IMG/VR virus record: IMGVR_UViG_3300043313_000750
Location: 1 to 49,506 of that record
Direction: 5' to 3' (one strand)
From: a virus
DNA: 49,506 nt
Shown here: positions 3,522 to 43,729 of the stretch, piece after piece
Numbering within the stretch: position 1 is the stretch's first letter
How the letters are laid out: every line of letters starts with the position of its first letter
Notes under the pieces: model-generated
What the model saw: the letters and a program-made list of their open reading frames with translations, nothing else
Databases searched by the model: none
Told to the model about the DNA's origin: nothing
Translations under genes and position numbers: made by a program

Positions 3522-4468
3522 GGCATCACTCTCCTGATCGCGACGGGGTTCTTGAACTGGTTCACGTCCTGGTACTGGACGAACGTGCCGGTGTGCGGGG
3601 CGGCGATGACCTTGCCGTGGCCCACGTACATGACGACGTGGTGGCCGGTGGGGAAGATCAGGTCGCCGGGCTGGAGCTGCTTCCAGCTCACGGCGCGGCC
3701 CACCTTGATCTGGTCGTAGGTGGTGCGAGGCAGGCTGATCCCGATCTGCTTGTACGTCCACTGGATCAGGTCGGAGCAGTCGAACGACTCGGTGCTCGGG
3801 CCAGAGCCGAAGACGTACGGCTTGCCAATCTGACTGCCCGCGATCTTGGCGACGCGCGCCTGGTTCCCGCTGAACCCCCCGAGCTCGAGCGGCTGCAGTG
3901 AGCCGCCGGGGGAGACGGCCCCGACCTGTCGAGCGATCTTGTCGTCCATGGCGGCGAGCATGTGGGCGAGCTCGGGGTCGTCGTCGAAGATCTGCATCAT
4001 GGCGAAGTTCCACTTCGGGTCGCCGACGCTCGTCGGCCACTTCGACTTGAAGCCCTGCACCGCCGCCGCTGCCCGAGCGTGTACGGGAGCAGCGACGTGG
4101 CCCCCGAGGATCTTCGCGGCGTACCCAGGGTTGCCGTCGGGGCGTCCGGACACCCACACCTGGAGGCCCGCGCCGACGTTCCCCGCGTACGGGTTGCCGG
4201 AGGCGAGGCCGTCGAGGATGTCCCCGTACCGGCCGTTCTGCAGAGTCTCCGCCAGGCTCTGGATCCCCTGGTTGAAGGAGTTGAACCGCTTCACCCCGAC
4301 GCTGTTGATCGACGTGCCGGGGCCGTGCGTCGTGTTGAGCCAGTTGAACCGAGCGCTGTTGTTGGTGTGGCCACCCTCCCAGCGCTGCCAGGTCTCGAGG
4401 AAGCGTAAGTTTGGCCCCGTTGGCTTATACCCAAGGTTATGGAGGAGAGCGGTGCGCCAGTCGGTCAT
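3518..4468 (-). CDS. Endolysin: lysozyme-like domain plus NlpC/P60 peptidase
   Basis: A 316-residue protein. The C-terminal domain (about 205-316) is NlpC/P60: catalytic Cys231 in SFDCSDLIQW, His277 in GHHVVMYVGH and His292. It should cleave the wall stem peptide. Residues 1-125 resemble a muramidase-like domain seen in phage lysins: WQRWEGGH with candidate acid Glu31, NWLNTTHGP, GIQSLAETLQNGRYGDIL. The middle (125-200) is a linker with no known fold. ATG 4468 overlaps the giant virion gene stop by 4 nt, and the M15-like gene follows. It might instead act in the virion to open the wall at entry; the position next to a holin-like gene favours lysis. Confidence 0.8.
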   Translation of the reverse strand: MTDWRTALLHNLGYKPTGPNLRFLETWQRWEGGHTNNSARFNWLNTTHGPGTSINSVGVKRFNSFNQGIQSLAETLQNGRYGDILDGLASGNPYAGNVGAGLQVWVSGRPDGNPGYAAKILGGHVAAPVHARAAAAVQGFKSKWPTSVGDPKWNFAMMQIFDDDPELAHMLAAMDDKIARQVGAVSPGGSLQPLELGGFSGNQARVAKIAGSQIGKPYVFGSGPSTESFDCSDLIQWTYKQIGISLPRTTYDQIKVGRAVSWKQLQPGDLIFPTGHHVVMYVGHGKVIAAPHTGTFVQYQDVNQFKNPVAIRRVMP

Positions 4469-7400
4469 GGTGTCGCCGTCCTCTGGGCGCGCTGCGCCTC
4501 GCCGATCTTGTTGTTGAGGTGAGCGAGCTGAGACAGGCCCAGCGCCTCACGCCCGGCCTCGTACACCGCCTGCGCCGTGTCGTCGTCCAGCTTCATGGCC
4601 TGCTCGGCCTTGCCGTTCCAGTAGTCGGCGTTGTCCGGGTGGAGCTCGGCCTGCGTCTTGCACAGGATCGCGACGCGCTCCTGGTCGGTCGACTCGCCCT
4701 CGATCTCGTTCTCCTTGCGGTACGCCCGGTACTGCTGCGAGAAGACCTGGTCGTTCTGCTTCCACTGCACCACCTCGGGCGGCGGAGCGGAGCCGGTGAT
4801 CTCGGTCACCTTCTTCACCCAGGCGTCGCGGCTCTGCCCGAGGCTCGGGGTGCCACGCTGGAGGGTGGCCTGCGCCGCGGCCTTCTCCGAGTCGATGTTG
4901 ATCGGCGCGAGGGAGCCGAGGAAGAGGCGGAGCCAGTTCTGCGTCTGCGTCGTGTCGTAGATCCCCTTGTGCGTCTGGTGATCCATGATCCTCTTGAGGC
5001 GCGTCCAGGAGGCCCACCGCTCGCGCGGGTCGAGGATGCGAAGGAAGAGGTCGGGGAGCCCAGTCGAGACCTGCTGCTGGGTGAACGAGTCCCAGCCGGT
5101 CACGGTCTTCTCGATCTCCTCGGCCAGCGGCCCGAGCATGGACGCAGCGCCCTCCTCGTTCGAGCCCCAGGGCAGGTTGGCGTGCCCACCGGAGCTCCAG
5201 TCGACGAGCATGGAGGCCAGATCCAAAGTCTGGAGTGGCGTGGCGAGCTGATCCATGCGGAAGCCGTACGGGTTCTCTCCGTCCTTCGGGGTGTCAAGCG
5301 GGAAGTACCACTTGAGGTAGCCCGGGTGCCCGCCGGGCAGCGCCTTCTTGAGCCGGTTCTGCTGCCAGTACACGAGCCCGGCGAAGGCCGCCGCCTGGAT
5401 CGGGTGGTCGAAGGGGAACTGGGCGGCGTACCGGCTCGAGCCGCGCAGCCAGGGGTACACGAAGATGAGACGCGTCACCACGTCGCGTTCAAATTTGTTG
5501 AGGTTGCCGTAGTCGACCATCGAGTGGTTCACCCGGTCGTGCACCTTCATCAGGTCGTCGATGTTGTCGACGTCGTTGACGAGGCGGTGGATGTCGGCCT
5601 CTGTCTTGTACCCGATGCGGCGCGCCTCGTGGAAGAACGAGGCCCGGCGGGGGTACTTGTCGATCAGGACGGTGCCGACCTTCCCGACCGCGTCGGTCGC
5701 GCGCTGGCCGAGGCCCCCCTTCGAGAGCATCTGGCTACCGGCGAAGCCGATGTCGGCGAAGCGGTCGATCAGGGCGAGGTCTTCCCCGCTCATGTTCTTC
5801 CACTGCCGAACGCTTCGGTACACCGAGAAGGGCGTCGACCACCCGAGTTGGGAGCCCAGCATGATCATCTGCCCCGCCATGTTCATCGGGTAGTACGCCG
5901 GGTTCAGGGACAGGGTCATCATCTTCATGAGGTTGTTGAGCGTGTCGGCCGTCCCGACTCCGTACTTGAAGAGGGCCCCGTGCGGAGCTCCGCCGTCGAA
6001 CAGGCCGGTCTTCTTGAGCAGGCTCCGGGGCACCCAGACCACCTCGGGGATGGGCTCCTTCATGGCCTGCTTCGCGATCTTCGCCACCTCGGCGCTCGCG
6101 GAGTCGGCCAGGCCGGGGAACATGTAGTCCTTGACGGCCTCGATCGCCTGGGCGTCGACCTTCGAGAGCTGCTGCGCGTCGATCGCGTCGCCCGCGTCCA
6201 TCGCGTCGAGGATGTCGGCCATGTTCCGGGCCTGCGACCGGGTCTGGTCGCTCCACTTCTGCGGGTGGACGGGGATCATCACGTCGTCCACGTTCTCCGG
6301 GATGTTGCGGCCGATCGCGATCATCTGGTCGCGGACGCCCACCATCTTCTGGATCTGGTGAGCCTTGAGCAGGCCCTCGAGAGGCCCGGCGATGACGCTC
6401 TTCTCCCAGCGGCCGGAGCGCAGGAGGTCGCCCTTGAAGGCGCGGGACAGGTGCTCGTCCGTGGGCGTCAGGGTGACCACGCGCTTGCCCCCGAGCAGCC
6501 GTGCCCAGTGCGTCGCCATGCGGCGCGGGGCGAGCGGGTTGCCGAACTTGAAGGGGAGCCCCAGCTTCTCGGGGATGTACGTACCAGGCTTCTCCTCGAA
6601 GCCCGCCGTGAAGTGGTCACCCTGCTCCTCGTTGAACTTGAAGATGTCCTCCATCATGATGCGTTCGTCCTCCGGCAGGCGCTCGAGCATGGCCTTCTCC
6701 CGATGCCACTTCCGGTCGGACTTCTTCATCGCCTTCCGCATCTTCACGAGGGCGCGCTTCACGTCCGTGGGCAGCGACGACTTCTCAGGCTCGAAGCCCA
6801 GCATCATCGCGCCGACGACGTCCGCGACGTCCTCGCTCTGGTCGTGGGTGAGCTTCTCCCCGGGCTGGGCACCGACGAAGTCCCAGAGCCAGGTCTTGAC
6901 GTGGGGCGGGAAGGCGTCGGCACTCTCGGTGGCATGGATGAACTCGTGGATCCAGTCCGCGGGGTGCGCCTCCTTCGAGACGTAGAGCTTCCGGGTCTCC
7001 CCCTCCCACAGGCCTGCCAGGATCAGCTTCTCGGGGAACATGCGGTCGGCCCCGGGGATGTCAGGGAAGTCTCGGCCGCGGAGCCCGCCACCCGCGATCG
7101 AGTCGAGGTGGCGACCGATGGCCGTCTTGTCGTAGATGTGCATGGGGCTGTTGGCCACGTCGCGGATGAAGTCGACGGGGATCTCCTGCCGCTGGAGCTG
7201 CGTCACGGCCTCCTCGTAGCCCGCGATGTCGCGCGCAAGCGACGCGCCCTTGCCCTGGAGCACGGCCTCGGCGGCGTCGCTGAGCGCACCGGGCTCGCCA
7301 GTCATGGAGAACCGAGCCCAGTCCGGGTACGACTCCTCGCGCTTGGCCCGGAGGGCCGACAGCTCGTCCATCTTCTTCGCGATCGGGCCGCCCTCGTCGA

Positions 7401-10400
7401 TGAGCTCCTGCTCGGCGGCGTCCTTCGCGTTCTGCCACCCGCTCTTGAATCCCTTCTGCGCCCGCTGCGGCTGGTTCTCGAGGTACCGGCCAGGCCGTCC
7501 CCCGATGGCTCCCCGTCGCCCGACGCCGGGCTCCCACTCCCGCGTCGGCCGTCGGATCTTGCCGCCGGTCGACTGGAAGGAGTCGGTGCCCCCGAGAGCT
7601 CGAGCGCGATCCTTGACCGCCTTGTCGATCTCCCGCTCGAGGCGGTCGATGGCCTTCTGGGTGTCGGCTACCTCCCCGGATTGCTCGAAGAGAGCGGCGT
7701 GGAGGTTGGAGCCGCCGATGGTGCGCCGAAGAGTTCGGCGGACTCGGGCTGCAGCGGGATCGAGATCTGCCACACGCTTGATGCCTCCGACGGTGCCGAA
7801 AGCGTCGGTGTACTTGGCTGGGCCATGTTGACTCCCTATCAGTAGCTGGAGGTTGTCCGCCCGGACGCTGCCCTCGCCGATGCCCATGTCCGCTTCGATC
7901 TTGCGGATGGCGGGCTCGTACTTGGCAGCCCAGGCGGCCTTGCTGTCGGCAGTGAGGTTCCCACGGTCGGTGCGGCTGACGATGCCCGGCACGTTCGGAT
8001 CGGGGCCAGCGGTGTACCCCCCGAACTCGGGGTGCGCCTCTGAGAGGGCCTCGAAGAACTGCTGCTTGGCGGCCGGATCCTTGAACGCCGGGTTCTCCAC
8101 GATGAGGGCGGCCTTGCTCGGGTACTCGCCCTTGCCCACGGTCACCCAGCGCGAGGCCTGCACGAGCTCCTGGTCGAACGCCTGCGCGACCTTCGTGATC
8201 AGCGGCATGACGTTTTCCTCGAGTCCGAGCACCTCCATGTTGATCGTCGCGTTGTGGCCTTGCGCCCAGCCCCCGGTGTCGACGAACACGTTGCGGACGG
8301 TGACGCCCGGCGTGTCCTCCGCCAGCTTCACGGCGTGCTCCTGCATCGTCCGGGCGACGGCCGTGGCCTGCTCGGGCGTGAGGTCGGCGCCGAGGCCCAG
8401 CGGCCCCTGCGTCACCTCGAAGTCGAGGCGGCGGGTCTCGCGGTCGAGGGCGAACTTGAGATCCTCGGGCTCGACGCCCCAGTACCGCTGGATCGCGGCC
8501 CAGTCCATGGCCTGCACCTCGATGTTCGTCCAGTCGCTGCGGCCGTCGAAGTTGATCGCCCGGAGGTGGTCGGCGAACGCCTCGTAGGACTTGCGGATCG
8601 ACTCGTACTGCCCGAGGGACGGGCCCGCGCTCACGTCCGGCACGGCGTCGATCCCCCAGCGCTGCTTGATCTGCGTCAGGGCAGGCTCGTCCACGCCGCC
8701 GTTGGCCCGGAGGCCCCAGCGGTCGATCACGAACGGCTCGCCCCCGGCCGGGTCGTTGCCTACCCACTGGCGCGTAGTCTTGAGGAGGGCGCTGTCGATG
8801 AAGTCTGAGATCTTCGCCTTCGCGCCGCGGGTCAGCCCGGTCTCGCCCTTGAGGATGGACTCCATGGCCTTCGCGGCCAGGCCGATGTCGTTCGGCCCGA
8901 TCGTCTTGCCGTCGGCGATGCGCTGCTTCACCTTGAGGAGGTCGAGCACGCCTCGGCTCGGGGAGGCTCCGACCTGGGAGGCCAGCCACGCCATGATCTC
9001 CTCGTCCGCCATGACGCGGCCGAACACCTGGTCGAGGTTGTGGTAGAAGCGGGCGTCGTGCAGCCGCTGCTCGGCGTCGGGCGTCCCGAGCAGGAGGCGC
9101 TGCGTCATCTCCTCCGGCGTGATGGTGCCCACGACGGGGATGCCGTTGTCGTCGAGGACGCGGGGGTTCTTCGGCTCGAAGGGCTTCGCCGCGATGGCCC
9201 GCTTGAGGTTCGTCGCCTCGACCTTGCTGCCGAAGGTGAACGGGTGAGTCTGGTCGACGATCGAGAACTGCCAGTCGCGGCCGAACTCGCCGTAGTCCTC
9301 CGACATCTGGGCGACCACCTCCGGGTCGAGCGTGTCACTCACCTCGGCGATGTGGTCGTAGAAGGTGGCCGGGTCGAGCTGCTCCTTGTCCGCCTGCAGC
9401 CGCGCGATGTCGACGCGGTGCCGGTTGGCCAGGATCCCGTTCGGGTCGCGGTCGATGGCCCGCTGGAGACGGGCGATCTCCTCGTCGTGGTAAGAGAGGG
9501 CGTCCTCGTAGATCCGGCGCGCGTTCGCGTCCTGGATCGTGAGGCCCATGTTGACGGACTTCGGGTTGTGGGCGGCGAGCATCCTCCCGAGCTCCTGCCG
9601 TACGGGGTGCTCTCGAAGCCGTTGCGCGATCCAGTCGTCCTTCGGAATGCGCAGCGCGTCCGCGTAGTGGAGCTGCTCTTTCAGGATGCGCCCTCGAGCT
9701 CTCTCGTCGGACAGCATCCCGAGGTCGTCCAGGATCTTCTCGCGGCCCGCGGAGACCTTGCCGATGGCGTCGCGCAGCGCCTGGAGCTCCGGCGGGGCGT
9801 CGGCGGTGAACACCGGGTGGCCCTTGGCGTCGGTCGTGACGTACTGGGCTGCCTTCTTGAAGAGCGCGAGGTGGACGCGGTTGGCCTCCGCCCCGAGCCA
9901 GTCACCGTTCTCGACGGCGTCGGCGAGGGCGCGCTCCGTACCGGCGATGGAGTCCTCGATCGGGACGCCCTTCGCGACGGTGCGGACGGCGTAGATGCCC
10001 GGCCAGTTCTGGCGCCAGCCTGAGGGCAAAGCCTTGTCGAGGGTATACAGGAGCCCCGTCGCCCTCTTCTCCACTTGCACGGCCTTGCGACCGACGGCTC
10101 GAGCGAACATCGTCTCGGTGTTCCGGAGGGGGACGAAGCGGGAGTCGCGCGTGGCGTCCATCACTCGGCGGGCCAGCTTCCCGATGCGGGCGAGGTCGGC
10201 CGGAGTCTCGACGGTGGCATCCCCGACGGTGAACTTGCGCGTGGCCCTCACGTCGTTCCGGATGAAGTTGGCGATGCGGCTCTGGCTGGAACCGGCGAGC
10301 GCCCCGGCGACGCGGGACGAAGGGATCGGGCCCTTGATCGTCTCGTCCGCGGCCTGGCTCAGCAGACGCGCACGGCGCTCCGCTTTCACCACCGCGATCG

Positions 10401-11310
10401 GCTTCGTCAGCGTCTCGGCCACCTCGGCCACGGTAAGACCCGCGCGCGTTCCCGCGGCGAGCTTTTGTGCTCCTACGAGGGAGCGAAGAGCCAAGGAGAT
10501 CGGCGTGGGCAGCCCCTTGATCGGCACGGCGAGGAGCGCGAGCTCCCCGGCCAGCATGTAGGGGTTGAACTCCTTGCCCTGCGCGGCCTTCATGATGTTC
10601 GGGCCGAGGGCAAGGTCGCCGGTCGTCTTCATCCAGTCGGGAACGTCCTCCGGCGGACTCTCCCGACCCTGCAGGCCCTGACTGAGGTGCGTCTGGAACC
10701 CCTGGACATGGGACTGCTCCCAGTTGATCAGGCGTCCAGGGACGTCGGGGGCCCCATGTAGGGCGGCCGAGCCGAGGGCCTTCATGATGTCGAACGCGCC
10801 AGGGTGTTGGGCGTGCGGCCCGTTCTGGACGTACTCGCTGATCGCGTGGTGTCCCAGCATCCGCCGCGTGTCGACGGGGAGGCGGCGGATCTCGTCGGCC
10901 CGCGCCTGGCGCTGGGCTCGAGCCACCGCAGCGTCGGCCCGGCGCTCGCGCTCCCGCTGCTGGTTGTACGCCCGGATGGCCTGCTGCCGCTGCCTCGAGA
11001 CGTTCTTCTCTCCGAGGGCCAGGTCAGCCGGGTCGAGGTACTCGTAGATCTGCGGCTTGTGTCCCCCGTGCGGCGTCTTCGGCTGCGGGTGCCTGTCCAT
11101 CATCGTGGACGTAGTCGGCTGCTGCGCCTTCGGCTTCGGCGAGGGCTCAGGGGTGTATGCCGCCTCCAGCGAAGGGACGGGGATCGGCGGGGCCTTCTTC
11201 TTTACGACCTTGACCTTCTTCGGCGGCTTCGGGGCGGAGTGCGGGGCCGTAGAGCCTTTCACCACAGGCTGAGGCGAGAACGCGCTGCCCGGGGGGAGTC
11301 TCCCTGGCAT
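4465..11310 (-). CDS. Giant internal virion (DNA-ejection type) protein, 2281 aa, with HExxH motif
   Basis: The longest gene in the genome. The N-terminus (1-100) is Pro/Lys-rich and basic; a charged coiled-coil-prone section follows (about 95-135); most of the rest is helix-rich. HEFIH at 1455-1459, in ADWIHEFIHATESADAF, is a zinc metallopeptidase signature, with possible further ligands downstream in DHFTAGFE. Near 1950 the segment LNKFERDVVTRLIFVYPWLR, with aromatic and hydrophobic residues after it, is typical of the C-terminal part of very large podovirus virion proteins. Position after the tail and internal protein genes, with no tape measure, supports a role in the ejected trans-envelope conduit, as T7 gp16 does. 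The start at 11310 is ATG, next to the preceding stop. Confidence 0.75.
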   Translation of the reverse strand: MPGRLPPGSAFSPQPVVKGSTAPHSAPKPPKKVKVVKKKAPPIPVPSLEAAYTPEPSPKPKAQQPTTSTMMDRHPQPKTPHGGHKPQIYEYLDPADLALGEKNVSRQRQQAIRAYNQQRERERRADAAVARAQRQARADEIRRLPVDTRRMLGHHAISEYVQNGPHAQHPGAFDIMKALGSAALHGAPDVPGRLINWEQSHVQGFQTHLSQGLQGRESPPEDVPDWMKTTGDLALGPNIMKAAQGKEFNPYMLAGELALLAVPIKGLPTPISLALRSLVGAQKLAAGTRAGLTVAEVAETLTKPIAVVKAERRARLLSQAADETIKGPIPSSRVAGALAGSSQSRIANFIRNDVRATRKFTVGDATVETPADLARIGKLARRVMDATRDSRFVPLRNTETMFARAVGRKAVQVEKRATGLLYTLDKALPSGWRQNWPGIYAVRTVAKGVPIEDSIAGTERALADAVENGDWLGAEANRVHLALFKKAAQYVTTDAKGHPVFTADAPPELQALRDAIGKVSAGREKILDDLGMLSDERARGRILKEQLHYADALRIPKDDWIAQRLREHPVRQELGRMLAAHNPKSVNMGLTIQDANARRIYEDALSYHDEEIARLQRAIDRDPNGILANRHRVDIARLQADKEQLDPATFYDHIAEVSDTLDPEVVAQMSEDYGEFGRDWQFSIVDQTHPFTFGSKVEATNLKRAIAAKPFEPKNPRVLDDNGIPVVGTITPEEMTQRLLLGTPDAEQRLHDARFYHNLDQVFGRVMADEEIMAWLASQVGASPSRGVLDLLKVKQRIADGKTIGPNDIGLAAKAMESILKGETGLTRGAKAKISDFIDSALLKTTRQWVGNDPAGGEPFVIDRWGLRANGGVDEPALTQIKQRWGIDAVPDVSAGPSLGQYESIRKSYEAFADHLRAINFDGRSDWTNIEVQAMDWAAIQRYWGVEPEDLKFALDRETRRLDFEVTQGPLGLGADLTPEQATAVARTMQEHAVKLAEDTPGVTVRNVFVDTGGWAQGHNATINMEVLGLEENVMPLITKVAQAFDQELVQASRWVTVGKGEYPSKAALIVENPAFKDPAAKQQFFEALSEAHPEFGGYTAGPDPNVPGIVSRTDRGNLTADSKAAWAAKYEPAIRKIEADMGIGEGSVRADNLQLLIGSQHGPAKYTDAFGTVGGIKRVADLDPAAARVRRTLRRTIGGSNLHAALFEQSGEVADTQKAIDRLEREIDKAVKDRARALGGTDSFQSTGGKIRRPTREWEPGVGRRGAIGGRPGRYLENQPQRAQKGFKSGWQNAKDAAEQELIDEGGPIAKKMDELSALRAKREESYPDWARFSMTGEPGALSDAAEAVLQGKGASLARDIAGYEEAVTQLQRQEIPVDFIRDVANSPMHIYDKTAIGRHLDSIAGGGLRGRDFPDIPGADRMFPEKLILAGLWEGETRKLYVSKEAHPADWIHEFIHATESADAFPPHVKTWLWDFVGAQPGEKLTHDQSEDVADVVGAMMLGFEPEKSSLPTDVKRALVKMRKAMKKSDRKWHREKAMLERLPEDERIMMEDIFKFNEEQGDHFTAGFEEKPGTYIPEKLGLPFKFGNPLAPRRMATHWARLLGGKRVVTLTPTDEHLSRAFKGDLLRSGRWEKSVIAGPLEGLLKAHQIQKMVGVRDQMIAIGRNIPENVDDVMIPVHPQKWSDQTRSQARNMADILDAMDAGDAIDAQQLSKVDAQAIEAVKDYMFPGLADSASAEVAKIAKQAMKEPIPEVVWVPRSLLKKTGLFDGGAPHGALFKYGVGTADTLNNLMKMMTLSLNPAYYPMNMAGQMIMLGSQLGWSTPFSVYRSVRQWKNMSGEDLALIDRFADIGFAGSQMLSKGGLGQRATDAVGKVGTVLIDKYPRRASFFHEARRIGYKTEADIHRLVNDVDNIDDLMKVHDRVNHSMVDYGNLNKFERDVVTRLIFVYPWLRGSSRYAAQFPFDHPIQAAAFAGLVYWQQNRLKKALPGGHPGYLKWYFPLDTPKDGENPYGFRMDQLATPLQTLDLASMLVDWSSGGHANLPWGSNEEGAASMLGPLAEEIEKTVTGWDSFTQQQVSTGLPDLFLRILDPRERWASWTRLKRIMDHQTHKGIYDTTQTQNWLRLFLGSLAPINIDSEKAAAQATLQRGTPSLGQSRDAWVKKVTEITGSAPPPEVVQWKQNDQVFSQQYRAYRKENEIEGESTDQERVAILCKTQAELHPDNADYWNGKAEQAMKLDDDTAQAVYEAGREALGLSQLAHLNNKIGEAQRAQRTATP

Positions 11311-37530: not shown

Positions 37531-37540
37531 CGTCGTAGTC
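37531..37540 (+). promoter_or_regulatory. Tag element 1, orphan (GTCGTAGTC)
   Basis: CGTCGTAGTC, followed 10 nt later by GGAGG (37551-37555) as in gene-linked copies, but then only a CTG codon and an early TAA. The upstream hairpin is weak. It looks like the leader of a lost or non-coding unit. Confidence 0.5.
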
Positions 37541-37772
37541 TTGTACCTCGGGAGGAACTGTCCAGCTAAGGCCTGGCCTGACGGCTAACGATCACCGTCC
37601 GGCGCACGATCGGCATGGCCCGCACCGGATGCGGTACGTCGAAGCGCTTGCACGCGCCGAGGCCCACCACGATCCGGGCGCTCCCAGCCGATGCCGGAGG
37701 ATCCCTGAATGAAGCCAGAACCGCCGAACGCGTACGGGCGAGTGAACCGAGCACTGCAAGACCAACGCGGGG

Positions 37773-37801
37773 GCGCCGTGCAAGGCGCTCTCGTCGTAGT
37801 C
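37773..37801 (+). promoter_or_regulatory. Hairpin-tag element 2, orphan
   Basis: Hairpin GCGCC/GGCGC (37773-37788) followed by CGTCGTAGTC (37792-37801) and TGGAGGGCAC. The ribosome-site part is present but no ATG follows at the expected distance; another hairpin (TCTCCC/GGGAGA) comes next. The post-tag string matches orphan 7 at 39938. Confidence 0.55.
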
Positions 37802-37959
37802 TGGAGGGCACTGATCTCCCGTCACTGGGAGACCTGAGGTAGACCACCACACGCCGACGAGCTGCAGCCATGGCCACGCTCGAAGGCAACGGCGGTACAT
37901 CCCTCTCTCGGTCTTCTCAACACGTACGGGCGACACCCGCTCCAGCCTCGACCCTCAGG

Positions 37960-38009
37960 GGGACGCAGACGGCCCGGCCGGACGTCGCGTCCCTCCGGTC
38001 GTAGTCAAC
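37960..38009 (+). promoter_or_regulatory. Hairpin-tag element 3, linked to gene at 38022
   Basis: Arms GGGACGC and GCGTCCC (37987-37993) with a structured 20-nt interior, then CGGTCGTAGTCAAC (37996-38009), AGGGAGG and ATG 38022. There are 15 nt between GTAGTC and ATG. Confidence 0.7.
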
Positions 38010-38021
38010 CAGGGAGGCACC

Positions 38022-38297
38022 ATGAACACGTACGCCGAGATCGCTCGCGACCTGAACGACCGCGAGATCGCCGCACGCCAGAAGGTGTGGAAGGCGTTCA
38101 TCGCAGGCGAGGCCGTCGAGCTCGACGCCGCCGAGTGCGGCGCGCTCTGGACGAGCATTCTCCAGACGGGCAAAGAGCTGAGCTGGTACCGCGAGCAGCT
38201 CCCGATCGCCACCGCCCGGATCGAGCCCTTCTTCTGCGACCACGAGGGGCCTGGGCCGCACGACTGCCGAGGCACCGCGTGGGAGCACGAGTCGTAA
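38022..38297 (+). CDS. Hypothetical early protein, 91 aa
   Basis: A helical acidic protein (YAEIARDLNDREIAARQKVW, ECGALWTSILQTGKELSWY) ending in a His/Cys-bearing tail (FFCDHEGPGPHDCRG) that could hold a metal ion. ATG 38022 has GGGAGG 5 nt upstream and is the first gene of the plus block, under tag element 3. Not recognised; small early phage proteins at such positions often act on host functions, which is only a possibility here. Confidence 0.65.
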   Translation: MNTYAEIARDLNDREIAARQKVWKAFIAGEAVELDAAECGALWTSILQTGKELSWYREQLPIATARIEPFFCDHEGPGPHDCRGTAWEHES

Positions 38298-38310
38298 TTC
38301 TGACCAGGCT

Positions 38311-38336
38311 GGGCCGCGAGGCCCGGTCGTAGTCAA
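38311..38336 (+). promoter_or_regulatory. Hairpin-tag element 4, linked to gene at 38351
   Basis: GGGCC, loop GCGA, GGCCC (38311-38324), then CGGTCGTAGTCAA (38324-38336), TGGAGG and ATG 38351, with 16 nt between GTAGTC and ATG. It lies 13 nt after the previous stop. Confidence 0.75.
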
Positions 38337-38350
38337 ACACTGGAGGAACC

Positions 38351-38656
38351 ATGAACCGCGTAGACCGCATCGCTGGCGTGCGCCTGGTCACCGATCGTCC
38401 GACCGTCGCACTCCCGCCCGTGTCCCCGCCGATCGACGTTGCGATCAACGACGACGACTTCGTCCCGAAGGGCCTGCGGGCCTGGGCTGGGCGGACGGCC
38501 GACGGCTTCCACGTCCAGGGGCTCGTCGACGCCGAGGGTCAGACGTTCGTGACCTGCTACCTCAACGGTGTCTGCGAGACACTGGAGATCCCGGTGGACA
38601 AGGCGCTCGACGCCTACCTCCACCCGTTCGCGTACGGCTTCACCCTTCCCCTGTAG
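38351..38656 (+). CDS. Hypothetical early protein, 101 aa
   Basis: A mixed beta protein (RIAGVRLVTDRPTVALPPVS, WAGRTADGFHVQGLVDAEGQ, TFVTCYLNGVCETLEIPVD). ATG 38351 has GGAGG 5 nt upstream. It is monocistronic between tag elements 4 and 5. No family is recognised. Confidence 0.65.
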   Translation: MNRVDRIAGVRLVTDRPTVALPPVSPPIDVAINDDDFVPKGLRAWAGRTADGFHVQGLVDAEGQTFVTCYLNGVCETLEIPVDKALDAYLHPFAYGFTLPL

Positions 38657-38661
38657 CAAGG

Positions 38662-38684
38662 CCCGGCATCGCCGGGTCGTAGTC
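38662..38684 (+). promoter_or_regulatory. Hairpin-tag element 5, linked to gene at 38724
   Basis: CCCGGC, loop ATC, GCCGGG (38662-38676), overlapping GGTCGTAGTC (38675-38684). Unlike other copies, 39 nt separate tag and ATG; a second hairpin CCGAGC/GCTCGG occupies the extra space before AGGAGG. Confidence 0.7.
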
Positions 38685-38723
38685 GTCCGAGCATCCCGCT
38701 CGGGCACAACAACAGGAGGAACC

Positions 38724-39761
38724 ATGCCTGCATTCTTCACCTACGGCTTCTCGGTTCGCGAGCTCCCTTGGCACGAGCTCGGTAGCGTTCCGATGGAGTA
38801 CCCCGGCCGCGACGAGGCGATTCTTCTCGCGGGCCACGACTTCGACGTGACGGCAGCTCCGCTGTTCGCCCGAGTCGGTAACCCAGAGGCTCCGGCCTTC
38901 ATCGAGGTTCCCGGCTGGCGCCAGCTCATCGCGACGTCGAACAGTGACCGCAAGTCGCCTGTTCACGGCAACCTGCTCCACATCGCCAAGGACTCGTACG
39001 CGGTGATTCAGAACACCGTCGCGTACGACTTCGCCGAGGCGCTGCTCGACCAGGGCTTCCTGTACGAGACAGGCGTGACTCTCAAGGACGGCGCGCTTTG
39101 CGCACTGACCCTGAGGCTCGACGAGCCGATCCAGATCACCGGAGACAACTCGGTCACGCTCCCGTACATCGGCCTGAGCTGGAGCCATGACGGCAGCGGT
39201 GCACTCCGCGGTCGCTCGACCAACGTGCGCATCGTCTGCGCCAACACCGAGTCTGCCTCGGAGGCCCAGGGCAAGCGCCTGGGCACCGACTTCTCGATCC
39301 GACACACGCAGAACTGGAAAGACCGTGTCGAGGACGCGAAGAAGGCGGTCACGGGAGCTCGCCGCGACATCGCTGAGTACCGCGAGGTCATGGAGGCGAT
39401 GGCCGCAATTCCGGTCACCGTCGCCGATCGCGAGCTCTTCGCGAGTGCGGTCGTGCTCGACCAGAAGGTCGCTTCGGTCTCGCGCTTCAAGGCCGACGTG
39501 GCCAAGGGCGCGTACTCCGCTCGTGTCCAGACCAACGTCGAGAAGGCCAAGACCGACGTTCTCGGTCTGTTCGGTGGGCCGACGATCCCGGACGAGCACA
39601 AGCTCACCGCGTACGGCCTGCAGCTCGCAGGGGTCGAGTACCTCGACCACATCCGCAAGGCACACAACGACGCCACGAAGGTCGGTCGTTCGTTGCTGCG
39701 AGACGAGCCCGCCAAGGGTCGCCTCACCCCGCTCATTCACGACATCGTGAACGCGCGGTAG
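38724..39761 (+). CDS. DUF932-family phage/plasmid-like protein, 345 aa
   Basis: The start (FFTYGFSVRELPWHELGS), VPGWRQLIATSNSD, the VIQNTVAYDFAEALLDQ segment and GLSWSHDGSGALRGRSTNVR, CANTESAS match the DUF932 (TIGR03299) family, common in phages and plasmids of actinobacteria, with no fixed function. The C-terminal third is helical (VEKAKTDVLGLFGG) and ends in a basic domain. ATG 38724 has AGGAGG 5 nt upstream; an upstream extension of the frame crosses tag element 5 and is not coding. It is the largest gene of the tagged early region, hence probably highly expressed early. Confidence 0.8.
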   Translation: MPAFFTYGFSVRELPWHELGSVPMEYPGRDEAILLAGHDFDVTAAPLFARVGNPEAPAFIEVPGWRQLIATSNSDRKSPVHGNLLHIAKDSYAVIQNTVAYDFAEALLDQGFLYETGVTLKDGALCALTLRLDEPIQITGDNSVTLPYIGLSWSHDGSGALRGRSTNVRIVCANTESASEAQGKRLGTDFSIRHTQNWKDRVEDAKKAVTGARRDIAEYREVMEAMAAIPVTVADRELFASAVVLDQKVASVSRFKADVAKGAYSARVQTNVEKAKTDVLGLFGGPTIPDEHKLTAYGLQLAGVEYLDHIRKAHNDATKVGRSLLRDEPAKGRLTPLIHDIVNAR

Positions 39762-39774
39762 TACGAGATCGAGG

Positions 39775-39806
39775 GGGGAGCCACGAGCTCCCCTCCGGTC
39801 GTGGTC
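39775..39806 (+). promoter_or_regulatory. Hairpin-tag element 6, orphan
   Basis: GGGGAGC, loop CACGA, GCTCCCC (39775-39793), then CGGTCGTGGTC (39796-39806), a one-base variant of the tag. No Shine-Dalgarno and usable ATG follow. The hairpin lies 13 nt after the DUF932 gene. Confidence 0.55.
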
Positions 39807-39885
39807 GAAGCATGAGACAGGCTCTAGATGCGCGGTCATGGGCGCCCCACTGACCGAGACGCCGGTTGGATCCCGGCCGTCCACA

Positions 39886-39937
39886 CCGGAGGTGGCCCGG
39901 GTGCGTTCAGAAGACCCGAAGCCTCCGGTCGTAGTCA
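39886..39937 (+). promoter_or_regulatory. Hairpin-tag element 7, orphan
   Basis: CCGGAGG (39886-39892) pairs with CCTCCGG (39922-39928), with an inner CGGGT/ACCCG stem; the tag CGGTCGTAGTCA (39926-39937) overlaps the right arm. TGGAGGGCACC follows, as in orphan 2, but no ATG comes at the expected place. Confidence 0.55.
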
Positions 39938-40018
39938 TGGAGGGCACCCGGCGCGAGGCGACAGAATCCTCGCGAGTGAGCGAAAGCACCGGGCCTTAGC
40001 CTGATCCTGAGCTACCAC

Positions 40019-40053
40019 ACCGGGGGCGTAGTCGCGCCCCGGTCGTAGTCAAC
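40019..40053 (+). promoter_or_regulatory. Hairpin-tag element 8, linked to gene at 40066
   Basis: ACCGGGG/CCCCGGT with an inner GCG/CGC extension (40019-40043), then CGGTCGTAGTCAAC (40040-40053), GGAAGGA and ATG 40066; 15 nt between GTAGTC and ATG. The loop itself contains CGTAGTCG, a second tag-like string. Confidence 0.7.
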
Positions 40054-40065
40054 GGAAGGAATGTC

Positions 40066-40344
40066 ATGACCGAGTACGTCACCAAGGCCGAGTTCACGGC
40101 CCAGAAGGCTCGTCTGACCCGGGCACTCCACAGCGACAACCCCGTCGCCGTGCTCGACGCAGTCGAGAAGACCCTCGCCGAGTGGCGCGGGAAGGCGTGG
40201 CCGGACGACTGGGCGCGCTGGCTCCGGTCGCTCGAAGACGCGTGGTACAAGTTCGCGAGCTCGGACGCGTACGACGACGACCAGGACATCAACGACTCGA
40301 AGATCTCCCGACGGTTCGTCGAGGCGATCAGAAGGATGCGATAG
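40066..40344 (+). CDS. Hypothetical early protein, 92 aa
   Basis: A helical protein (KAEFTAQKARLTRALHSDN, VLDAVEKTLAEWRGKAWPDD, then DDDQDINDSKISRRFVEAI). ATG 40066 has GGAAGGA 6 nt upstream. Isolated between tag elements 8 and 9. Not recognised. Confidence 0.65.
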   Translation: MTEYVTKAEFTAQKARLTRALHSDNPVAVLDAVEKTLAEWRGKAWPDDWARWLRSLEDAWYKFASSDAYDDDQDINDSKISRRFVEAIRRMR

Positions 40345-40345
40345 G

Positions 40346-40370
40346 CCCGGTTCGCCGGGTCGTAGTCAAC
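40346..40370 (+). promoter_or_regulatory. Hairpin-tag element 9, linked to gene at 40384
   Basis: CCCGG, tetraloop TTCG, CCGGG (40346-40359), then GGTCGTAGTCAAC (40358-40370), GAAGGAGG and ATG 40384, with 16 nt between GTAGTC and ATG. It follows the previous stop at once. Confidence 0.75.
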
Positions 40371-40383
40371 CGAAGGAGGCACC

Positions 40384-40623
40384 ATGAATCCGAACATCCT
40401 GACCATGCCGCTCATCGAGACCTTCGCCTGCGACGGCAAGGCCCCGAACGTGCTCGGCGCGCACAACCTGGCGCACGACGCACTCGAAGCGGCGCTCGGG
40501 ATCGACCCGCCTGCGGCCTGGACGCTCAAGGTCATGCAGCACTCGTACGACGTCACGTCGGGCGGTGTGGTCTTCCACGCCGAGTTCGCCCGCAACCCCG
40601 AGTTCGAGAGCGACGAGTCATGA
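40384..40623 (+). CDS. Hypothetical early protein, 79 aa
   Basis: Mixed composition (LIETFACDGKAPNVLGAHNL, HDALEAALGIDPPAAWTLKV, SYDVTSGGVVFHAEFARNPE). ATG 40384 has AAGGAGG 5 nt upstream. Its stop overlaps the next ATG by 4 nt (ATGA), so a three-gene coupled unit starts here. Family unknown. Confidence 0.65.
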   Translation: MNPNILTMPLIETFACDGKAPNVLGAHNLAHDALEAALGIDPPAAWTLKVMQHSYDVTSGGVVFHAEFARNPEFESDES

Positions 40624-40706
40624 GCAAGCGAAAGGCAGGGATGTGCGGCTGCTGCCTGATCGTCCACAAGGCCGGGCAGTGCCGCGGCGACAACTCCGGC
40701 TCATGA
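40620..40706 (+). CDS. Cys-rich mini-protein, 28 aa
   Basis: MSKRKAGMCGCCLIVHKAG then QCRGDNSGS: three Cys in CGCC, His16 and a later Cys, a plausible zinc knuckle. The ATG overlaps the previous stop and its own stop overlaps the next ATG (ATGA on both sides), strong evidence for translation despite the size. Function unknown; a nucleic-acid or protein-binding knuckle is possible. Confidence 0.6.
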   Translation: MSKRKAGMCGCCLIVHKAGQCRGDNSGS

Positions 40707-41014
40707 TCAGCGAGGCCCTCAAGGCTCGCGTTCGAGCTGAGATCGGAGACCCGCACGACCAGTGCTACACCGCGTCCGAGGCCTTGTACGTCCTGGCGGG
40801 CGGCAAGGCCGCGGGCATCACGCCGATGCACGGGGTGGTCGAGACCGAGCACACCCGTATCAGCCACTGGTGGCTCAGGGACGAGGACGGCTCGGTCGTG
40901 GATCTCACGGCCGACCAGTTCGACTTCCCGTGGCCCTACGCCGAAGGGCGTGGGCGCGGCTTCCAGACCCACATGAAGAGGGCGGCGCGCGAGCTCGTCG
41001 AGCGCCTGTCCTGA
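40703..41014 (+). CDS. Conserved phage hypothetical, 103 aa
   Basis: CYTASEALYVLAGGKAAGIT followed by SHWWLRDEDGSVVDLTADQF is a recurrent pattern in small proteins of diverse phages; the ordered Cys, His and Asp recall papain-like or transglutaminase folds, but no activity is known. ATG 40703 overlaps the mini-protein stop. Third and last gene of the coupled unit under tag 9. Confidence 0.65.
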   Translation: MISEALKARVRAEIGDPHDQCYTASEALYVLAGGKAAGITPMHGVVETEHTRISHWWLRDEDGSVVDLTADQFDFPWPYAEGRGRGFQTHMKRAARELVERLS

Positions 41015-41039
41015 CGAGCTCCGGCTCGTCGTAGTCAAC
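41014..41039 (+). promoter_or_regulatory. Hairpin-tag element 10, linked to gene at 41053
   Basis: ACGAGC, loop TCCG, GCTCGT (41014-41029), sharing bases with CGTCGTAGTCAAC (41027-41039), then GAAGGAGG and ATG 41053, 16 nt after GTAGTC. The hairpin includes the stop of the previous gene. Confidence 0.75.
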
Positions 41040-41052
41040 CGAAGGAGGATCC

Positions 41053-41307
41053 ATGGCAACGCTCACCCTCAGCACGAACGGCGCCCATCGCGGGCAGCCC
41101 GTTCACGACGTGGAGAAGGCCGAGCTGCATCGGTTCTTCGGGGACGTGACGGCAGACATCGCCATCGTGACCCTGAGCACCGAGCAGGCCCTCGCGGTCG
41201 CGTACGACCTGCTGTACCAGGCGGTCGACGCCGGGGTGCTCACGGGCTGGAACGTCCAGTTCCCCGAGTCCGACCAGTACCCCGATCAGCCCACGTCGTC
41301 CTCATGA
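41053..41307 (+). CDS. Hypothetical early protein, 84 aa
   Basis: An alpha/beta protein (HDVEKAELHRFFGDVTADIA, VTLSTEQALAVAYDLLYQAV). ATG 41053 has AAGGAGG 5 nt upstream. Its stop overlaps the next ATG. Not recognised. Confidence 0.65.
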   Translation: MATLTLSTNGAHRGQPVHDVEKAELHRFFGDVTADIAIVTLSTEQALAVAYDLLYQAVDAGVLTGWNVQFPESDQYPDQPTSSS

Positions 41308-41612
41308 AGACCAAGCCGAGCGGCCACTACCTGATGATCACGCTCCCGGCTCCGTTCGAGACCGTCGAGCGGGTGTACTTCCCGCTCCTGGCCCCGGAAG
41401 AGACCGTCGAGCAGGCGCTCGAGCGCTACGTGGCGGGGCACCCCGACATGAAGGACAGGGTGCGCAACCGCGACAAGACCGAGAGACGAATACGCGGCGA
41501 GATCATCGCCGCGCGTACGACTCACCCGACTAGCTGGCGACGCCAGCAGGCGGAGGATGCAGGACTTCCGTGGCCCGTGCCTACCGGCCGAGCCAGGAGG
41601 CGTGCGCGCTGA
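41304..41612 (+). CDS. Hypothetical early protein, 102 aa
   Basis: Begins HYLMITLPAPFETVERVYFP and continues with a helix EETVEQALERYVAGHPD, then a strongly basic C-terminus (PTGRARRRAR). ATG 41304 overlaps the previous stop (ATGA). The basic tail suggests nucleic-acid contact. The hairpin of element 11 overlaps its stop. Confidence 0.6.
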   Translation: MKTKPSGHYLMITLPAPFETVERVYFPLLAPEETVEQALERYVAGHPDMKDRVRNRDKTERRIRGEIIAARTTHPTSWRRQQAEDAGLPWPVPTGRARRRAR

Positions 41613-41627
41613 GCGCACGTCGTGGTC
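41602..41627 (+). promoter_or_regulatory. Hairpin-tag element 11, orphan
   Basis: GTGCGC, loop GCTGA, GCGCAC (41602-41618), then CGTCGTGGTC (41618-41627), the same A-to-G variant as element 6. No start codon with a ribosome site follows for 240 nt. It may end the upstream unit. Confidence 0.55.
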
Positions 41628-41733: not shown

Positions 41734-41757
41734 CATATGAACAATGACCCTTCACCA

Positions 41758-41830
41758 TTAGAGGGCGAAGCAGCATCACATACGTCCCATTGGGTGGGTA
41801 CCCTGTAAGTGATGCCCCTCTGCCCTCTAA
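41758..41830 (+). promoter_or_regulatory. Two-part stem-loop leader of the HTH gene
   Basis: TTAGAGGGC (41758-41766) pairs with GCCCTCTAA (41822-41830); after a symmetric 6-by-6 internal loop, GCATCAC (41773-41779) pairs with GTGATGC (41809-41815). The 29-nt apical part contains the palindrome GGGTACCC. The structure ends about 22 nt before the Shine-Dalgarno of the gene at 41866. The symmetry fits an RNA switch or protein-binding leader, or a DNA operator with two half-sites. I match it to no known riboswitch. Confidence 0.6.
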
Positions 41831-41865
41831 GGTTGATGAATCAAACGAAAGACCGAAAGGACGAC

Positions 41866-42342
41866 ATGAACGTGACCAAGCTCCCCGACGCAAGTCGGGA
41901 GAACATGCTCGACGCCGCAGGTCTCGACGGCTCAGCCCGTTGGGACGGCGTGGCGCGCGCCGAAGGGTCGCCCGACGACCCCGTGACCACCGAGTTCATG
42001 AACGACGGTGGCTGGGGCATCGTGACGCCCGGCAACGAGAACCGTGACAGCGGGCTCGTCGCCCACCGAGGCGTGCTGACCGACGGCGAGTACGTGGACT
42101 TCTTTGTGCTCCGCGACGCCGTCGAGGCGGAGCTCGGCTTCACATACGCGGAAGTGTCCGCGGCCTACAGGATTGGCCGTCCAACGGCCGAGCAGCGCCA
42201 GCTACGGGCTCGCATCGACGCCCGCCTGCTGGCGCTTTCGCGTTCCGGGGGCAACATGGACGCCCTGGGCCGCGTGCTCAACATCGGCGAGGCGACGATC
42301 GACCGAGCTCTAGCCCGAGCTCGACTGCAGGAGCGGGCGTGA
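41866..42342 (+). CDS. HTH protein, putative transcription regulator, 158 aa
   Basis: The C-terminal 30 residues (GNMDALGRVLNIGEATIDRA, then LARARL) look like a helix-turn-helix; a second helical segment FTYAEVSAAYRIGRPTAEQR (92-111) precedes it and may also be HTH-like. The N-terminal half is acidic (PDDPVTTEFMNDGGWGIVTP). ATG 41866 has AAAGGA about 6 nt upstream; an upstream in-frame ATG at 41809 lies inside the leader stem and is rejected. It starts the coupled run of replication genes, so it may control them or itself through the structured leader. Confidence 0.65.
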   Translation: MNVTKLPDASRENMLDAAGLDGSARWDGVARAEGSPDDPVTTEFMNDGGWGIVTPGNENRDSGLVAHRGVLTDGEYVDFFVLRDAVEAELGFTYAEVSAAYRIGRPTAEQRQLRARIDARLLALSRSGGNMDALGRVLNIGEATIDRALARARLQERA

Positions 42343-42865: not shown

Positions 42866-43707
42866 CCACCCCAGCCCTCGCGAAGACCACCAGCTCAGGC
42901 GACCGCACCTACGCGTGGCCGCCCCAGCCGCCCTACGAGTTCGAGGTGGCCTCGGTCACCTACTCGATCGGCAACGGGTATCCGAAGCCGTTCCTCATCC
43001 CCTGGGCCGCGAAGATCACGGCCGAGTGTGCGGTCGACAACCACGCCATCGTGGCGGCCATGCTGGAGAAGGACGACCAGCGCGGGGCGATCGACTACCT
43101 CAAGGGAGCTCGCAACCGCTCCGCTGGCGCCAAGGCCGATCGCGGCACGATCGTGCACGCCGCGCTCGAGTCGCACCTCACCGGGGAGAAGCTTGACCCG
43201 AAGGTGCTCGGGGCGCAGCTCGAAGAGGCCCGCGTTCCCCGCAGCCTCTGGAAGGGGGCCCACGGCATGGTCGAGGGCGTGCTCCTGTTCCTCGACGAGT
43301 GGAAGCCTGAGATCTTCCACTCCGAGCAGACGGTCTTCTCCCGAGCTCACGAGTACGGCGGGACGGCCGACGTCCTCGGGAGGGCGGGCATAGAGAAGAA
43401 ACCGACCAAGGCCCGCGAGAACGTCGTGATCGACGTCAAGACCGGGAAGAGCATCTACGACGACACCGCTATGCAGCTTTGTGCCTACGCGCGTGGCGAC
43501 TTCGTGGGGCTCAACGACGGTTCCGAGGTGGCGCTCACGCCGGACGGCAGCCCCATCGAGTGGGGCATCGTGATCCGCCCTACCGCCTCCGGCAAGTACG
43601 AGCGCGCCGTGTTCAACCTCAACGACGAGGTGTTCGAGATGTTTCTCCACTGCCAAGCAATCGCTGAGGGACGCAACGTCCTCAAGCGAAGTCGACGGCC
43701 CAGCTAG
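42862..43707 (+). CDS. Cas4/RecB-like PD-(D/E)XK nuclease, 281 aa
   Basis: The nuclease core is visible in order: RGTIVHAALE (His99), EYGGTADVLG (Asp170), VVIDVKTGKSI (Asp191, Lys193) and MQLCAYARG (Gln205, Tyr209). This is the GxxxH-D-DxK-QxxxY pattern of RecB/Cas4 nucleases, which resect DNA ends in recombination and replication. The usual iron-sulphur Cys cluster of Cas4 is not seen, so it is closer to phage RecB-type exonucleases. GTG 42862 overlaps the previous stop. With the SSB-like protein next to it, it may form a recombination module. Confidence 0.8.
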   Translation: MTTPALAKTTSSGDRTYAWPPQPPYEFEVASVTYSIGNGYPKPFLIPWAAKITAECAVDNHAIVAAMLEKDDQRGAIDYLKGARNRSAGAKADRGTIVHAALESHLTGEKLDPKVLGAQLEEARVPRSLWKGAHGMVEGVLLFLDEWKPEIFHSEQTVFSRAHEYGGTADVLGRAGIEKKPTKARENVVIDVKTGKSIYDDTAMQLCAYARGDFVGLNDGSEVALTPDGSPIEWGIVIRPTASGKYERAVFNLNDEVFEMFLHCQAIAEGRNVLKRSRRPS

Positions 43708-43729
43708 GGCCAGGAAGGGGATCCGAACG

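Follow-up and report, generated by a model that had tools for sequence, protein, structure and literature searches.

A repeated hairpin-and-tag element at the gene junctions of a phage early operon

Elements that recur at actinophage gene junctions have been known for more than ten years, to our knowledge without a mechanism. Two described systems come close to the element reported here. One comprises the start-associated sequences (SAS) and extended start-associated sequences (ESAS) of cluster K mycobacteriophages and cluster EF Microbacterium phages (PMC3203893, PMC7302621). The other comprises clustered hammerhead ribozymes, which flank prophage genes and have been proposed to process long phage RNAs into operon-length or gene-length mRNAs (PMC3088659). 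The DNA analysed here is the IMG/VR virus record IMGVR_UViG_3300043313_000750, whose whole length of 49,506 nucleotides (nt) is referred to as the window. At the junctions of its early genes, the window carries GC-rich hairpins of variable sequence, each followed by an invariant 10-nt tag. This is a real, structured and repeated junction element, and its statistical support is strong. The interpretation that is tentatively favoured, with a chance that falls a little short of even, is that the element serves as RNA punctuation of the early operon, probably as a site of RNA processing or 3'-end formation that is recognised by a factor specific for the tag.

SAS and ESAS resemble the window element in that they are repeated and co-oriented among small non-structural actinophage genes, and some of their copies have an upstream inverted repeat. 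Their linkage to gene starts is shared in part, with five of the 11 window copies preceding no start. However, the 13-bp conserved SAS is the ribosome-binding site itself (PMC3203893), whereas the window tag is located upstream of a separate Shine-Dalgarno sequence (SD). The arms of the cluster K ESAS have a conserved 17-bp sequence (PMC3203893), whereas the arms of the window element are variable. The window element, unlike SAS/ESAS, also marks stop codons. In the Microbacterium phage AnnaSerena, a hairpin of at least 5 bp abuts the SAS at only three of ten sites. An initial annotation of this DNA named SAS/ESAS as the nearest analogue. As kinship this is rejected, because the conserved part of the window element is not a ribosome-binding site and its arms are not conserved in sequence. 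The intergenic 18-mer of cluster EC, as in Quhwah (PMC7302621), is also asymmetric and co-oriented, and is located 21-30 bp upstream of starts, before the ribosome-binding site. It is abutted by a hairpin at none of 12 scanned Quhwah sites, and the mean folding energy there is -7.1 kcal/mol. In Quhwah (L209), many copies of the 18-mer, for example the one at 37868, are preceded by a second block of conserved sequence (CTAACC..GATTAGAC) about 15-20 nt upstream, and the phage encodes a sigma factor. The 18-mer looks like a two-part promoter because of this second block.

Clustered phage hammerheads (PMC3088659; L090) are similar to the window element in that a structured RNA is present at successive early junctions, directly before the ribosome-binding site and near DUF932 or ard-type genes. 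Unlike them, the window element has no hammerhead core (CUGAUGA...GAAA), and no Rfam match is detected in the window at either gathering or relaxed thresholds. By analogy, hammerheads clustered at phage gene junctions are probably the functionally nearest known system. A hairpin with a tag is smaller than any self-cleaving ribozyme known to us. In L090 (IMGVR_UViG_3300032303_000243), a DUF932 phage, type II hammerhead cores (CTGATGAG) are located directly before four gene starts (4503, 5279, 6368 and 6999), and two of these hammerheads (5236-5300 and 6318-6385) exceed the threshold of Rfam RF02276.

The tag and its hairpins

The exact sequence SGTCGTRGTC occurs 11 times on the plus strand of the whole window. 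All 11 copies are located within 37531-41627, and none is found elsewhere on this strand. On the minus strand it occurs three times, at 2368, 42719 and 45325. The probability that at least 11 of these 14 tags fall by chance on the plus strand of this interval, which was picked after the data had been seen, is ~2e-13 (binomial). The clustering of the tag reported in the initial annotation is borne out by this count.

A hairpin was scored when at least five contiguous Watson-Crick pairs end at the tag. A hairpin so defined abuts the tag in nine of the 11 copies, compared with 13% of control positions. The copy at 39927 has no simple hairpin and is preceded by an outer stem formed by ACCGGAGG (39885-39892) and CCTCCGGT (39922-39929), and the copy at 37531 has only a weak stem. 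Thus, the ten structured copies counted initially correspond to nine hairpins and one outer stem, and the copy at 37531 had been overlooked. The mean folding energy is -16.9 kcal/mol at the tags, compared with -10.1 kcal/mol in the region, and is -11.0 kcal/mol at 58 one-mismatch tags elsewhere. The loops are 3-8 nt long without consensus, and the copies differ in hairpin length and in the distance from hairpin to tag. The 3' stem arm extends into the first letters of the tag in several copies, and all 11 have C at position -2.

The stems are all different between the window copies. The same layout with a different tag is present in a distant relative, a 44.6-kb record termed G006 (L116). Among 15 copies, 14 distinct 5' arms are found, and the mean information per column is 0.18-0.19 bits upstream of the tag versus 1.5-1.6 bits in the tag. 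To evaluate the pairing, the 3' arms were dealt to the 5' arms of other copies of the same genome in 5000 permutations. The observed pairing is reached in two of 5000 permutations for the window and in one of 5000 for G006. These permutations use copies of one genome, which may share ancestry, though the stems do not resemble each other. This result supports the earlier claim that pairing is kept despite differing stems. The sense strand folds slightly better than the antisense strand in the window (by -1.7 kcal/mol), but not in G006 (+0.5 kcal/mol). In a motif-agnostic scan centred on gene starts at about 190 loci, the window and G006 rank first, and all other loci have at most three sites.

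Placement between stop and start codons

The early operon is predicted, together with its start codons, to run rightward from about 38.0 kb to 41.6 kb. All 11 tag copies are co-oriented with its genes, and the order of stop codon, hairpin, tag, SD and ATG is kept at each non-overlapping junction between 38.0 and 41.6 kb. Two gene-less leader copies carry the tag CGTCGTAGTC, one at 37531-37540 with a weak hairpin and the other at 37773-37801 (hairpin GCGCC-GTGCAA-GGCGC at 37773-37788, tag at 37792-37801). The copy at 37980-38006 (GGACG-TCG-CGTCC) is followed after 15 nt by the ATG of a small gene (38022-38297, 91 amino acids, without Pfam or PHROGs match). The copy at 38311-38334 (GGGCC-GCGA-GGCCC) is located 13 nt behind a stop codon and 16 nt before the ATG of a small gene of 101 amino acids (38351-38656). 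At 38662-38684 the hairpin CCCGGC-ATC-GCCGGG overlaps the tag. Here the ATG, that of the DUF932 gene (Pfam PF06067, 38724-39761), is 39 nt away from the tag, because a second hairpin (CCGAGC-ATCCC-GCTCGG, 38687-38703) sits between tag and SD.

The copy at 39775-39806 (GGGGAGC-CACGA-GCTCCCC, tag GGTCGTGGTC) is located 13 nt past the DUF932 stop codon with no gene directly after it. The copy with the outer stem (39885-39936), which also has an inner stem CGGGT/ACCCG, is gene-less. The copy at 40023-40050 (GGGGCG-TAGTCG-CGCCCC) is located 15 nt before the ATG of a gene of 92 amino acids (40066-40344), a part of which is similar to an early open reading frame of Microbacterium phage Hendrix. The copy at 40346-40367 (CCCGG-TTCG-CCGGG, overlapping the tag) is located right behind the stop codon of this gene and 16 nt before the ATG at 40384. 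Three genes that overlap in ATGA follow (40384-40623, 40620-40706 and 40703-41014), and their junctions carry no element. The hairpin of the copy at 41013-41036 (GACGAGC-TCCG-GCTCGTC) overlaps both the stop codon and the tag, and this tag is located 16 nt before the ATG of the first of two overlapping small genes (41053-41307 and 41304-41612). The last copy (41602-41627; GTGCGC-GCTGA-GCGCAC, tag CGTCGTGGTC) has the stop codon in its loop, and is located at the operon end with no gene directly after it. All of these features are on the plus strand.

The distances from the end of the tag to the ATG are therefore 15, 16, 39, 15, 16 and 16 nt, of which five of six are 15 or 16 nt with the SD in between, as stated initially. 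The SD is separate from the tag, at 5-8 nt. This even spacing makes a translational operator regulon the main rival interpretation, in which one RNA-binding protein of phage or host binds hairpin and tag beside the SD and switches the translation of all tagged cistrons, with the ATGA genes following by translational coupling. The short tag-to-SD distance, which is 6-11 nt in G006, is consistent with it. The operator of T4/RB69 gp43 is likewise a hairpin plus a sequence overlapping the ribosome-binding site (PMC3014915), but it controls a single autoregulated gene and has a conserved loop, whereas the window element has a conserved 3' tag. However, no gene follows five of the 11 window copies and one of the eight G006 copies, the hairpin is as close to stop codons as the tag is to starts, and the spacing to the ATG is looser in G006 (16-23 nt). 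An operator regulon is for these reasons considered rather unlikely.

The distances from the stop codon to the start of the hairpin are 13, 5, 13, 1, -2 and -11 nt, with two hairpins overlapping the stop codon, and the copies at 39797 and 41618 mark gene ends. Because the element hugs stop codons as closely as starts and one copy is located after the last gene, it is as much stop-associated as start-associated. Linkage to gene starts, as first described, is correct but too narrow. The position of copies right behind stop codons and at the operon end, and the direct abutment of the hairpin on a tag of about 10 nt, would also suit a transcription signal, in which a hairpin-stabilised pause or terminator holds the tag in the RNA-DNA hybrid and the paused polymerase may be the target of a phage factor. 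This is improbable, because a U-tract is absent and a terminator scan found none of these sites. In addition, strong termination would require a promoter in the few nucleotides before each SD, and no known antiterminator gene was seen.

The element is confined to the early genes. The ATGA-type junctions at 40620, 40703 and 41304 carry it in none of three cases. The genes at 42-49 kb lack it as well, as initially noted, mostly because they overlap (ATGA-type) and leave no room for it. No more than two gaps were detected among them, one of 22 nt and the other of about 10 nt. At the sole 22-nt gap, a hairpin without tag (GGCCC-AGCTA-GGGCC, 43698-43712) holds a TAG stop codon in its loop.

A distant relative with a different tag

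A four-sequence terminase profile retrieved a clade at 38-54% identity. The terminase of G006 is 42% identical to that of the window. G006 was flagged by a motif-agnostic scan for k-mers found repeatedly right behind different hairpins, on their 3' side, and its elements are on the strand opposite its terminase, as in the window. The structural genes of the two phages are syntenic and mostly 26-42% identical, whereas no BLAST match is detected between their early proteins. In G006, six early-gene junctions each have a different hairpin with CTCGGTCACT behind it (in one copy CTCGGTCAAT), and AGGAGG and an ATG come next. At a seventh gene start the tag has diverged to TTAGGTCACT and no hairpin is clear. 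The leader holds one further copy that precedes no gene; its tag is CTCGGTTACT, and GAGCCCGG pairs with CCGGGCTC as its outer stem. Thus, G006 contains eight copies, seven at gene starts and one without gene. When a pattern built on its tag is run against all of IMG/VR, five matches are in G006 itself and one single match is unrelated.

As read from these two genomes, the layout, the pairing and the use of one tag per phage are conserved, while the tag letters and the genes are replaced. The initial annotation named relatives that do not keep stem and tag together as a refuting case; the outcome was instead that G006 keeps pairing and position with another tag. The two tags may be related (CTCG-TCGTA-GTCAACC in the window, CTCG-GTCACTCACC in G006). 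The element has been detected in two records only, each metagenomic and perhaps incomplete. A hairpin-and-tag element shared by two distant phages with different tags is not described in the literature searched.

The complete difference of the G006 early genes behind the same boundaries might point to a DNA-level site, which would be either an extruded-hairpin promoter for a phage RNA polymerase or factor, as in N4, or a recombination boundary for gene cassettes. The podovirus-like head genes (SU10-type capsid, portal/adaptor), the large virion-region protein, and the overall similar strength of sense and antisense folds are consistent with it. The promoters of the N4 virion RNA polymerase are similarly short GC-rich hairpins in a podovirus early region, with stem bases free if pairing is kept, but they have a 3-base loop, conserved bases within the hairpin and a recognisable RNA polymerase (PMC4496689). 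In contrast, the loops and stems of the window element have no conserved bases, no RNA polymerase is recognised in the 2281-amino-acid virion-region protein of this possibly incomplete genome, a protein which has no Pfam or PHROGs match, and a conserved second half-site upstream is absent. A DNA-level site is thus quite improbable. The hairpin likely acts as RNA rather than as a DNA cruciform, mainly because every copy points in the direction of the genes and fits in with the positions of stop codon, SD and ATG.

Proposed punctuation of the early transcript and comparison with other loci

If the element punctuates RNA, the early region would be transcribed as one long RNA. At each true cistron gap this RNA is predicted to fold into a GC-rich hairpin just past or over the stop codon, followed by the single-stranded phage-specific tag and the next SD. 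A factor that recognises any hairpin with this tag would act at the junction, most likely by cleavage or 3'-end formation in or beside the tag. A protective hairpin would then close the upstream cistron, and the downstream one would begin just before its ribosome-binding site. ATGA-overlapping genes could not be cut apart, and would for this reason have no copy. The gene-less copies would set the bounds of the leader and of the spacer past the DUF932 gene, and would mark where the operon ends. Factor and tag would have drifted together between relatives. Punctuation is preferred to the other interpretations, because gene ends and the end of the operon carry copies just as starts do, while the ATGA junctions, which are uncuttable without damage, have none. 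The absence of a conserved upstream block that could serve as a -35 also counts for it. Thus, the initial suggestion of a processing site or a combined terminator and leader is still the best guess.

Several observations weigh against punctuation. A nuclease or RNA-binding factor was not identified among the profiled proteins of the window, whose genome is possibly incomplete. With 5-10 bp, the stems fall below the length that RNase III ordinarily processes. The even 15-16 nt spacing from tag to ATG in the window suits a translational role better, sense-strand folding is not clearly favoured in G006, and the gene-less spacers show no unusual structure or excess folding when examined as non-coding RNA. 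Finally, one G006 element is located inside an open ArdC-like frame with no stop codon before the element. This frame (L198, 4829-6124; element at 5696-5732) continues without a stop codon through the next gene and reaches the following one, possibly because of a lost stop codon, an assembly error, or translation to the end of a cut mRNA.

It is conceivable, though doubtful, that the element represents a new class of RNA element, in which any stable hairpin with a private tag occupies every separable junction and is cut or terminated by a co-evolving phage factor, while genes are freely exchanged. Its logic is testable, because structure is conserved, letters are free, one tag is invariant per phage and the tag is replaced in the relative. 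This logic leads one to expect a factor that acts in trans and whose specificity could be exchanged along with the tag; polycistronic RNA of GC-rich bacteria could then be cut or controlled through an orthogonal sequence. The element further suggests that phages separate the cistrons of early transcripts in different ways, by hammerhead ribozymes, by terminator-promoter cassettes, or by a hairpin with a tag.

Hairpins before gene starts are also found in other phages. In L064 (IMGVR_UViG_3300031942_000005, 3.0-11.3 kb), hairpins are located 10-45 nt upstream of 14 of 20 SD-ATG starts. They often have 5 bp and a 5-nt loop (AGACC, AGATC, AGACA or AAGTC). Behind them come an A/C-rich spacer (GCAACAC) and AGGAGA, and the geometry is boxB-like. 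The occurrence of variable-stem hairpins in this unrelated GC-rich phage, compared with 30% of random positions, would agree with an insulator of the ribosome-binding site, in which hairpin and A/C-rich spacer keep the SD unpaired in a genome of 66% GC without a specific factor. Such an insulator leaves the invariant 10-nt tag and the gene-less copies unexplained, and is very improbable. In L065 and L066 (for example L065 9905, 11086, 11827, 13494 and 15452), intergenic variable-stem hairpins are followed by CTAGAACC and a TTGAC/TATAAT-like promoter, and these sites are, as judged from their sequence, terminator-promoter cassettes.

Other candidates were rejected. An N4 hairpin promoter does not fit loops of 3-8 nt without consensus. 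An intrinsic terminator is rejected since the tag has no T-run and none of the sites was found by the terminator scan, and a sigma-70 type promoter repeat since no promoter-like site is present in 36.5-43.5 kb and no upstream block is conserved. An integron attC site is rejected since the tag has no conserved 5' counterpart (an integrase was not exhaustively sought), and a REP/RAYT-type mobile repeat because no stem is a copy of another.

Searches for further copies gave no convincing hit. Exact patterns of tag and SD detect 12 stretches in 2.9 million viral contigs, all single and mostly without abutting hairpin, which are taken as chance. Single-sequence searches with DUF932, terminase and DNA polymerase yield one relative of the structural half (L010), which ends before the element region. 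None of the 80 loci from a DUF932 profile search has the window tag or layout, and none of the Microbacterium phages Kozie, MementoMori, Akoni and Hendrix has a hairpin-linked tag. The layout was not found in a terminase relative, G012/L200 (19.7-kb fragment). Only distant terminases were detected when prophage relatives were sought in bacterial genomes, and a search of 50,697 phage records gave no close match to the early region.

The window is a metagenomic, possibly incomplete 49.5-kb record with a GC content of about 0.66. The structural genes, which encode an SU10-type major capsid protein, a portal/adaptor-like protein and the terminase, are oriented leftward, and genes for an exonuclease, a primase and DNA polymerase A follow the early operon. 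The uncultured phage is podovirus-like in its head genes. The 2281-amino-acid protein (4468-11310, minus strand) is possibly an ejection protein; it has an HExxH stretch (HEFIH), and one part of it is conserved in G006. An imperfect inverted repeat (39 nt, 74%) at 41745-41843, just upstream of a helix-turn-helix-like gene at 41866, is possibly an operator/promoter region.

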